From contig SLLW01000246.1 in NCBI GenBank assembly GCA_007133875.1, forward strand, positions 1 through 21,577: 21,577 nucleotides of DNA. The letters are read 5' to 3'. This DNA comes from Balneolales bacterium. Its GTDB lineage: Bacteria; Bacteroidota; Rhodothermia; Balneolales; Natronogracilivirgulaceae. The position numbers and the translations under genes are program-made. This document shows, in pieces, positions 4,808 to 9,800 of the stretch; the first letter of the stretch is position 1; every line of letters starts with the position of its first letter. The notes beneath the pieces are model-generated. The model searched no databases. It was not told the DNA's origin and saw nothing but the letters and a program-made list of their open reading frames with translations.

Positions 4808-4924
4808 GTAAAACACTGGTCAGGCCACACCGAAACGATTCCGTAACCCATCAGGTTATATCATCACGAGTTATTATTACAGGCATAACAGGCAGCTCAC
4901 CTATCCCCACTACTCACACATTCC

Positions 4925-8011: not shown

Positions 8012-8052
8012 GACAGGATCAAAAGCAGATTACCACTGCATTTGACCCTGTC
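8012..8052 (-). terminator. Hairpin terminator after the small membrane protein
   Basis: Two 17-base arms (8012-8028 and 8036-8052) pair at 15 of 17 positions around a 7-base loop. They begin 5 bases past the stop codon of the minus-strand gene ending at 8058. On the minus strand the hairpin is followed by CTTTTATT, a short T tract. It would end transcripts coming from the lipoprotein/small membrane protein unit. The 8-kb stretch 7783-8011 before it holds no gene I can support. Confidence 0.7.
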
Positions 8053-8057
8053 ATTCA

Positions 8058-8270
8058 TCAATGTTGAAGGCTATTGGTTTTCCGGCCTTTGTACCAGGAT
8101 ATGATGCCCATAATGATCAGAAATAAGATGCCGACGCTACCCAGAATGACAAACCAGTCAAGCATTGCATTCGGAAAATTCTCCCAACCAGTCTCACCTA
8201 TTCGGGTACGCCAGGCTCGAATCACAAGCATTATTAAAAAAGCTGCAACTCCAAACTGGATTATGGCCAT
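8058..8270 (-). CDS. Small two-helix membrane protein of unknown function
   Basis: About 70 residues with two hydrophobic helices: AIIQFGVAAFLIMLVIRAW near the N-terminus and WFVILGSVGILFLIIMGIIS near the C-terminus. The loop between them is polar (RTRIGETGWENFPNAMLD), and the tail is basic (YKGRKTNSLQH). I chose ATG 8270 because AAAGGAAG (8276-8283) lies 5 bases before it. An upstream in-frame ATG at 8291 would add MKIKEVL but is preceded only by an A tract. It lies 20-40 bases downstream of the lipoprotein gene with the bacteriocin-like tail and before a terminator, so the two are probably co-transcribed. Size, topology and position would suit an immunity or anchoring partner, but that is inference; I do not recognise a family. 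Confidence 0.65.
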   Translation of the reverse strand: MAIIQFGVAAFLIMLVIRAWRTRIGETGWENFPNAMLDWFVILGSVGILFLIIMGIISWYKGRKTNSLQH

Positions 8271-8275
8271 CAATA

Positions 8276-8283
8276 CTTCCTTT
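8276..8283 (-). promoter_or_regulatory. Ribosome binding site deciding the start of the small membrane protein
   Basis: On the minus strand AAAGGAAG ends 5 bases before ATG 8270. The upstream ATG at 8291 has no such site, which favours the shorter 70-residue product. Confidence 0.5.
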
Positions 8284-8310
8284 ATTTTCATTTTTTTTTG
8301 GATTTATTGT

Positions 8311-9024
8311 TTAACAGTATTCCGCTGCTCCGACAAGTGCACCGGAAACAGCACCAACGACACATCCGGCGGGACAACCGACCAGTGTCAACTTGCACCC
8401 CGCAATGCAACCTGCCCCTGCACCGCCAGTGGTTCCGGCAACACATCGTCCCCAGCTATCCCACCAGGATTCCCTCTCTTCTCTTTCTTCTTCATCATCA
8501 TTATCATTTTCCAAATTCAGGACCAGATTAGAATCCGTTTGACCCGATCCCAGCAAGTCTCCATTTTCCTGCATGAATAAGATTACCTGACGTACACTGA
8601 TTAAATCGATGATGGTATGGTCGTCCAGGGCCTCATCATTCAAAGCGGCCGCTATCTGTTCCAGTGCCTGTCCGGGCGTCTCCGACTGCTCCACAATCAA
8701 TTGTGATTTGGACGGGCCGGTTCTTTTATTACGCATTGGGTCTGCAGTAAAAGTATTTGCCTCAAGTACCTCTGACATGGCCTCATCTTCCAGTACCTCC
8801 AGGTACGCTTTATGGAATATCTCCTCCATATTATCCCTGTCAGCACCTTTTGAGCGCATTTCACTTGCAGCCGTCACCATTATCTGGTTAAGTGCATGCT
8901 CCAACTCTTCAAATTCATTTGCCGAAGTATCCTTGTGATCGGTAACACTCTGCGTCTCACAAGCTCCAAACATAAAAACGAGAATCAGAACTTTTGCCAA
9001 TGGAAAGGTTATGATAGTTTTCAT
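8311..9024 (-). CDS. Lipoprotein with acidic middle and Gly/Cys-rich bacteriocin-like C-terminal tail
   Basis: A 237-residue protein. MKTIITFPLAKVLILVFMFGAC is a lipoprotein signal with the acylated Cys predicted at residue 22. The middle (~25-150) is acidic and helical (EFEELEHALNQIMVTAASEM, MEEIFHKAYLEVLEDEAMSEVL, ALEQIAAALNDEALDDHTI), followed by a highly acidic linker (DNDDEEEREERE) and SWWDSWGR. The last ~45 residues are hydrophobic, rich in Gly and Ala, and contain six Cys (194, 206, 210, 217, 221, 237) including a CxxxC-x6-CxxxC core. Such tails resemble class II bacteriocin-like or halocin-like peptides and Gly-rich membrane-inserting segments. I start at ATG 9024, where the signal begins (AGAGAG lies upstream), and not at ATG 9096, which would bury the signal. 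No family recognised; export and maturation are unverified. Confidence 0.7.
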   Translation of the reverse strand: MKTIITFPLAKVLILVFMFGACETQSVTDHKDTSANEFEELEHALNQIMVTAASEMRSKGADRDNMEEIFHKAYLEVLEDEAMSEVLEANTFTADPMRNKRTGPSKSQLIVEQSETPGQALEQIAAALNDEALDDHTIIDLISVRQVILFMQENGDLLGSGQTDSNLVLNLENDNDDEEEREERESWWDSWGRCVAGTTGGAGAGCIAGCKLTLVGCPAGCVVGAVSGALVGAAEYC

Positions 9025-9117
9025 TGCATTACTCTCTATGGTTAAGTGATTAGTTTTGCCTAGCCCAAGCCATTTTCCCAAGTTTTTGAAAATCATGACC
9101 CGGAAGCTGATCCAAAA

Positions 9118-9576
9118 TTACCACCCATTCACAGCCTCATTCTTCAATTGGTTGTTCAAAGTTCCCTTTAGTTTATTTTTATACGCTCTGGGTGACATAC
9201 CGGCTACTTTTTTGAAAGCCTCACAAAACGTTGACGGTTGTTCATACCCCACCTCAAACCCAATTAAAGTTATACTGCATCTTCCATTTGATAGCTTCAT
9301 CATCCTTTGTGAACAATGGATCCTGTGCAACCTTATATATTCCAATGGAGTCATTCCGATCAAATAGCGGAATTTCATTGAATAGTTATTTTGATTGATA
9401 TGGCATGTTGCACGCATCTTGCTGACTGTACAACCAAACTCAAAAAGATGCCGGTTAAGATATTCCAATGCACGTTTTATATCAGATGGCCATTTGGCTC
9501 CTGCTTTTTGCAGTTTCTCATGCTTGTATTGCTCCTTCAATACCCGAATCATCCTGTTTTCATCAATAGTTTCCAT
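9118..9576 (-). CDS. AraC-type helix-turn-helix transcriptional regulator (DNA-binding domain only)
   Basis: A 152-residue protein carrying little more than an AraC/XylS DNA-binding domain. Helix-turn-helix 1 spans ~49-70 (CTVSKMRATCHINQNNYSMKF), followed by the linker motif LIGMTPLEYIRLHRI. HTH 2 spans ~101-122 with the family signature IGFEVGYEQPSTFCEAFKKVAGMSPRAYK. The N-terminal 30 residues are polar and too short for a sensor domain, so any ligand sensing must occur elsewhere or be absent. It lies directly upstream of the lipoprotein gene on the same strand (93 bases between them), so it may regulate that unit. The start is ATG 9576; a possible small ORF upstream overlaps it out of frame, so an older longer form is conceivable. 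Confidence 0.8.
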   Translation of the reverse strand: METIDENRMIRVLKEQYKHEKLQKAGAKWPSDIKRALEYLNRHLFEFGCTVSKMRATCHINQNNYSMKFRYLIGMTPLEYIRLHRIHCSQRMMKLSNGRCSITLIGFEVGYEQPSTFCEAFKKVAGMSPRAYKNKLKGTLNNQLKNEAVNGW

Positions 9577-9695
9577 CTATTCCGATCGTATCTGTCAAGA
9601 TCACGTATTTTTTCCCAATCATCGATATGGATTGCACCTGGCTGCCATATAACCGGGTTCACATGAATTACACAGTCATGTTGCAAATCTGCCAT
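9549..9695 (-). CDS. Possible 48-residue small ORF upstream of the AraC-type gene
   Basis: ATG 9695 opens a 48-codon frame (MADLQHDCVIHVNPV... IDDWEKIRDLDRYDRNRWK...) ending at TGA 9549-9551. It overlaps the start of the AraC-type gene by 28 bases in another frame. AGGTGG lies just before the ATG, closer than is ideal. The composition (Trp, Asp, Arg, Ile) looks like protein. It might be a leader peptide, a small gene, or the frameshifted N-terminus of the regulator. I recognise no family. Confidence 0.28.
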   Translation of the reverse strand: MADLQHDCVIHVNPVIWQPGAIHIDDWEKIRDLDRYDRNRWKLLMKTG

Positions 9696-9800
9696 ATCCA
9701 CCTGCCAATCCTGAATTCCCTGATTTTATTATCCTTCAGACAACATTACAGGACCGAAAAAACATAAAACAGATCCATTTATTTTCGGTGTTTACGTCTA

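Follow-up and report, generated by a model that had tools for sequence, protein, structure and literature searches.

The window, a stretch of 21,577 nucleotides from a Balneolales bacterium, carries a three-gene unit that, to judge from its sequence, probably encodes a bacteriocin and an immunity protein: a class II-like tail borne by a lipoprotein, and a small membrane partner. An earlier note on this DNA had read the unit as a regulator, a toxin-like precursor and a possible immunity protein. That reading is supported by the adjacency of precursor and small membrane gene in 24 of 27 loci, by a double-glycine form of the tail in a Mucilaginibacter locus (L050), and by small genes that occur as orphans.

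Organization of the unit

Reading from position 9576 to position 8058 on the minus strand, the AraC-type gene, the lipoprotein gene and the small membrane-protein gene lie in series, separated by gaps of 93 nt and 19 nt, respectively. The features are as follows.

9118-9576, minus strand: AraC/XylS-type stand-alone DNA-binding regulator, 152 aa (HTH_18, PF12833, E 1.2e-15)
8311-9024, minus strand: lipoprotein precursor with C-terminal bacteriocin-like tail, 237 aa, ATG at 9024 (lipobox Cys22; relatives)
8959-9024, minus strand: signal peptide, residues 1-22, lipobox FMFGA/C (lipobox rule; Cys22 invariant in a five-member alignment)
8539-8934, minus strand: helical N-terminal carrier domain, residues 31-162 (AlphaFold2, block pLDDT 77-96)
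8467-8517, minus strand: acidic linker, residues 170-186, possible processing region (Asp/Glu content, low pLDDT)
8314-8466, minus strand: bacteriocin-like tail WWDSWGRC...EYC, residues 187-237 (motif, alignment, model)
8058-8291, minus strand: two-helix membrane protein, proposed immunity protein, 77 aa (model, conserved adjacency)
8012-8052, minus strand: hairpin, probable terminator at the end of the unit (-25.4 kcal/mol, z -6.2)

That the three minus-strand genes close in a strong hairpin, as first described, is borne out by the coordinates, the folding energy and the shuffled sequences, none of 200 being equally good. The hairpin is followed by CTTTTATT, and is absent from the output of a simple terminator scan. 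The unit has a G+C content of 43.4%, against 49.4% for the window (1519-bp windows: standard deviation 2.6, minimum 41.9). The start of the AraC gene is also covered, in a different frame, by an open reading frame (ORF) of 50 aa with a GTG start (9549-9701, minus strand).

The AraC-type protein, for which no ligand-binding domain was matched in Pfam, has relatives immediately upstream of the lipoprotein gene in genomes G009 and G011. Because the three-gene order is kept in these two other genomes of the family, the arrangement is more than chance. Beyond them, no AraC relative was found at E 1e-5 in the loci examined, including the stretches examined around the pairs of G047, G026 and G066. 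The proposal that the regulator belongs to the unit thus stands for three genomes, all of this family; as no AraC gene was found next to the pair in the other loci examined, we take the general unit to be the pair of precursor and small protein.

The lipoprotein and its tail

Within the model of the carrier domain, pLDDT falls to 65-66 at residues 81-100, and no convincing fold match was found for this domain. Ten of the 20 residues preceding the WW motif are Asp or Glu, and residues 165-173 have a pLDDT below 50. The tail itself comprises the last 51 residues and is rich in Trp, Gly (22%) and Cys (six residues); its model, which is of low confidence (block pLDDT 56-67), shows a helical hairpin formed by residues 187-212 and 217-236. 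This architecture, together with the occurrence of the tail as a module elsewhere, supports the initial description of a lipoprotein with a Cys-bearing, bacteriocin-like C-terminal tail. Neither the lipoprotein nor the small membrane protein has a Pfam or NCBIfam match above cut-off.

The motif WWxxWGxC(A/V)AG was recast as a DNA pattern and scanned over the genome collection, which gave 45 matching stretches. In 27 of these (24 from Bacteroidota/Balneolales and three from Corynebacterium) the motif marks the start of a Gly-rich tail close to the C-terminus of a precursor-like protein; the remaining 18 were read as chance frames and dropped. The size of the family is a lower bound, as it derives from a single exact pattern and from 856 genome look-ups, counting repeats. 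Some loci are not independent: L027, L049 and L059 probably correspond to G047:C69, G009:C216 and G011:C38, respectively, L066 and G026:C2 share one truncated protein, and L043 and L070 belong to one genome.

In an alignment of 29 proteins, W191 and C194 do not vary, and conservation reaches 90% or more at C237 and at several glycines, the conserved glycines being regularly spaced in the tail. The number of Cys is even in 25 of 28 tails, a count that excludes L066, whose tail is cut, and three members without the motif. The lipobox rule is satisfied by 18 of the 29 tail-motif proteins. The other 11 consist of five without an export signal, the three from Corynebacterium, and L031, L036 and L050; a Sec-type signal without lipobox, judged by eye, was seen in L031, L036 and the Corynebacterium proteins L033 and L069. 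A lipid anchor, at first considered unusual for such a precursor, is in fact its commonest form.

The class II bacteriocin profile Bacteriocin_IIc (PF10439) was matched at E 0.5 or better by four of the 29 members, and among the ten members listed singly only L050 fell below 0.01 (L061, 0.06; L031, 0.1; L026, 0.58). Apart from this family, the best E values over all 29 members were 0.005 in Pfam and 0.007 in NCBIfam, and no member listed singly had a Pfam match above cut-off. One profile ranking was not used as evidence, since the profile had been built from the proteins ranked and the result would be circular.

In L050 the tail follows a short double-glycine leader in a peptide of 71 aa. The protein of the window is not matched by PF10439; the best member is the L050 peptide, just below the curated cut-off (E 7.4e-6, 26.3 bits against 27.1). 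The L050 locus also encodes an ABC exporter with a C39 peptidase (PF03412, E 1.1e-23), a two-helix protein, a membrane protein of 215 aa and an AhpC/thioredoxin-like protein. The 215-aa protein has no Pfam match, and it has a homologue with 37% identity in L073, a locus of the lipoprotein type. The L050 tail and this homologue therefore tie the lipoprotein form to a bacteriocin cluster. The toxin-like character that had been proposed for the tail gains support from its occurrence with a double-glycine leader and a C39 exporter.

The small membrane protein

The protein encoded just behind the lipoprotein was rightly recognized as a two-helix membrane protein; its length is 77 residues, not 70. 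In the model (mean pLDDT 84.8) it consists almost wholly of two helices, 3-34 and 43-76, with short loops.

A partner was defined as a small ORF with a hydrophobic helix starting between -30 and +150 nt from the stop of the precursor. Thirty loci were examined, and L030, L045 and L066 were left out for having too little downstream sequence; such an ORF is present in 24 of the other 27. Two controls drawn from the same loci agree with each other: the figures were 7 of 102 ORFs of at least 200 aa in any frame, antisense included, and 8 of 107 non-overlapping ORFs of at least 150 aa (Fisher p 1e-16, relatedness ignored), two of these eight positives being other precursors of L031. The misses are L052, L063 and L027. 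In L052 and in the Aquimarina locus L063, the 150 nt downstream contain no small membrane ORF; the L052 tail is without the last Cys, and no signal peptide was seen in that protein. L027 was scored as a miss, although L005, from another copy of that contig, shows a membrane ORF of 56 aa there. Hence adjacency of tail and small protein, whose constancy the earlier note had put forward as a check, is far more frequent than in the controls and is broken at L052 and L063. In Corynebacterium (L033, L064 and L069), a Gram-positive genus, a small membrane ORF starts -7 to +45 nt from the stop of the motif protein. A named strain that carries the pair is Lunatimonas lonarensis AK24 (L057).

The small proteins are divergent, yet their sequences suggest that they are largely one family: in a leave-one-out analysis at E<1e-3, 23 of 31 were recovered. 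The eight that failed include the partner of the L050 double-glycine peptide. Three of the 31 count for less because they were found by similarity in the first place.

Distribution and mobility

The lipoprotein was matched in six of the 97 genomes searched, the window's own included; a match in G049 was weak and was dropped. Full-length relatives have 41% identity in G009 and 37% in G011, the latter with two small genes in tandem, and in G047, G026 and G066 a small membrane gene likewise comes after the lipoprotein gene. When a five-member profile was run against 128 genomes of the order, seven gave a match, which in G001 covers no more than a remnant of the tail. The small protein is present in ten of the 128 genomes, in 11 copies, and has a precursor alongside in six (G000, which is the genome of the window, G009, G011, G026, G047 and G066). 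The copy in G002 lies at a contig end.

In G001, which belongs to the genus of the window, a tail remnant (L023, 7320-7439; 50-52% identity over 40 residues) lies beside an intact gene for a small protein of 98 aa (L023, 7534-7827). Both sit between the lipoyl synthase and lipoyl ligase genes, and neither the N-terminal domain nor the rest of the precursor was matched within 12.7 kb. G039 and G084 have the small gene, and no precursor match was found in them with the five-member profile in the 128-genome search. The G039 copy is located 110 nt downstream of a Vut_1 (PF02592) gene; in G066 a relative of that Vut_1 gene, with 75.6% identity, stands ahead of the complete pair. The occurrence of the small gene with no intact precursor in these three genomes is therefore the pattern of a toxin and its immunity protein, and its survival where the precursor has decayed or was not found supports the small protein as the immunity candidate. 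Orphan immunity genes are reported to be common for E. coli bacteriocins (PMC12546727, in the part of the source available).

All three genes are absent from the mnmE site of G001, which is syntenic with the window. The low G+C content of the unit and its absence from this site indicate that the unit is cassette-like. A spermidine-synthase-like ORF of 242 aa occupies the place of the unit at the G001 site (L081, 2715-3440).

Comparison with known systems

Class II double-glycine bacteriocins resemble the unit in combining a hydrophobic, Cys-containing glycine-zipper peptide with an adjacent small membrane protein. They differ in that the peptide of the window forms the C-terminal part of a lipoprotein of 237 aa, which has a lipoprotein signal in place of a double-glycine leader and no linked exporter.

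The available text on the Cdz system of Caulobacter (PMC5380434) describes glycine-zipper, bacteriocin-like proteins on the surface of the producer, contact-dependent killing and a membrane immunity protein. The unit shares with Cdz a glycine-zipper protein and an adjoining membrane-protein gene. In that text CdzC and CdzD have 86 and 84 aa and are exported by a linked type I system (CdzAB), genes for which were not seen by eye among the ORFs of the window. For CdzI three membrane segments are predicted, against two helices here, and a lipid anchor is not described.

According to the part of the source available (PMC8546572), SitA of the SitA/SitI system of myxobacteria is a lipoprotein with an N-terminal carrier (escort) domain and a variable C-terminal toxin, its immunity gene is adjacent, and the genes are often on mobile DNA, like the cassette-like unit here. 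The window likewise has a lipoprotein with a carrier domain, a distinct C-terminal module, whose toxin role is putative, and an adjacent small gene. In contrast, SitA has an escort domain of ~375 aa, nuclease tails and TraA-dependent outer-membrane exchange, while the tail of the window is short and predicted to be of a membrane-active type.

Two further comparisons also draw on partial sources. Bacteroidetocins (PMC6671954) are likewise peptide toxins of Bacteroidetes, but of the class IIa-like, double-glycine-leader kind; their region, comparable to L050, encodes an ABC transporter with a double-glycine peptidase domain, a membrane protein and a thiol oxidoreductase. The producers were found to restrict their own growth, and the authors took this to mean that there is no immunity protein. 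DAG-RiPPs (PMC12636315) are peptide precursors that enter the lipoprotein pathway and occur in Bacteroidota as well, but they are modified by MNIO enzymes and were mined among precursors of 50-160 aa; no modifying-enzyme gene was seen by eye in the ORF list of the window.

Proposed mechanism and alternatives

On the sequence evidence, the unit most likely encodes a class II-like peptide that forms the end of a lipoprotein, together with a two-helix immunity protein. The two halves of the idea are each known, surface-held contact killing from Cdz and the lipoprotein carrier with its toxin from SitA (both as described in the parts of those sources available). The AraC-type protein would turn the unit on. 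The precursor would be made as a lipoprotein and exported by Sec and the lipoprotein pathway, and its lipid would keep it in the envelope, the helical N-terminal domain acting as carrier. The C-terminal 51 residues would form a class II-like peptide with a Trp cap, a glycine-zipper helical hairpin and disulfides, and this tail would insert into the inner membrane of a competitor and permeabilise it; in the producer, the 77-aa protein would reside in the inner membrane and block the peptide there. We infer killing, immunity, disulfides and regulation by the AraC-type protein alike, as well as the choice between a tail that acts while anchored, in a contact-dependent manner, and one that acts after proteolytic release. 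Among the precursors whose signal can be recognised most are lipoproteins, so the peptide may work on contact while still at the cell surface, or proteolysis may set it free. Export probably runs through the lipoprotein pathway, because no ABC transporter or adaptor was recognised by eye in the window's ORF list and no C39 peptidase match was found in four of seven genomes (G000, which is 76% complete, G009, G011 and G026; matches were found in G001, G047 and G066).

We propose tentatively, as something that may well turn out otherwise, that the unit represents an undescribed family of widespread, surface-anchored polymorphic bacteriocins of Bacteroidota, in which carrier-domain lipoproteins with interchangeable class II-like tails would kill on contact without a dedicated secretion machine, each with a two-helix immunity protein, and would move as small cassettes. 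If this is true, Bacteroidota possess a minimal two-gene weapon, a class II-type peptide as the tail of a lipoprotein, that needs housekeeping export only, and free bacteriocins, surface-bound glycine-zipper toxins and lipoprotein toxins become connected. Searches for short double-glycine-leader precursors with a transporter could miss such lipoproteins, since the members listed singly have no Pfam match above cut-off.

The strongest alternative keeps the same toxin-immunity pair and differs in the delivery step alone, so that it is compatible with the mechanism above: the anchor would only park the precursor, and an envelope or extracellular protease would cut the linker and let the tail diffuse as an ordinary class II bacteriocin. 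We regard this as possible but doubtful. The acidic linker of the window protein, with its low model confidence, would suit such a cut, members with a Sec signal and no lipobox exist (the four given above), and the leader and C39 exporter of L050 would free the same tail. On the other hand, no conserved cleavage site before the WW motif is visible in the tail alignment, no protease gene was seen by eye in the ORF list of the window, and the lipobox is present in 18 of the 29 proteins, five of the other 11 having no export signal.

It is unlikely that the precursor is an outer-membrane lipoprotein with a structural or stress-related role, its tail a glycine zipper of the YMGG, OsmB or PdsO kind, accompanied by a small inner-membrane partner. 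Such a role is suggested by the sole Pfam match of the lipoprotein, Gly-zipper_YMGG (E 0.32), by the only NCBIfam matches of the tail, PdsO (E 0.53) and an OmpA-like family (0.76), by an OsmB match (0.095) in one of the 29 members, and by the presence in the order of glycine-zipper OmpA-type lipoproteins, one of which (L075) was also picked up by the profile. However, the YMGG, PdsO and OmpA-like matches are all below the curated cut-offs (11.2 against 28.9 bits for YMGG and 9.9 against 152.2 for PdsO), and both the motif and the even number of Cys are conserved. A structural glycine zipper is further disfavoured by the patchy distribution in the order and the absence from the syntenic site of a genome of the same genus, by the double-glycine form of the tail in L050, and by small genes without precursor, intact in G001 where the precursor has decayed.

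An intracellular or sibling-directed pair resembling a toxin-antitoxin, switched by the AraC-type protein and serving to stabilise a mobile cassette or to trigger envelope damage under stress, would fit the low G+C content, the absence from the sister site and the regulator that adjoins the pair in three genomes; we consider it improbable, as the precursor has an export signal and a pure addiction pair has no need of small genes without a detected precursor, such as those of G039 and G084. It is very improbable that the tail is a secreted peptide for signalling or adhesion and the small protein its membrane receptor, for although a two-helix membrane protein next to a peptide that is exported could equally be the sensor of a signal, the small protein is nearly all helix and short loop with no signalling domain matched above cut-off, and the tail is akin to a bacteriocin-type peptide (L050).

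Other precursor loci

In an 8-kb locus of Chryseobacterium gwangjuense (L031), three Sec-type precursors share near-identical leaders but differ in their C-termini, one of which is Cys-rich without a glycine zipper, and each of the three is followed by one or two small membrane ORFs. The Aquimarina sp. locus L063 encodes two lipoproteins that resemble each other in the leader and differ in their Cys-containing tails; the second protein, at reverse-strand position 4851, has a Cys-rich tail and is perhaps another type of toxin.
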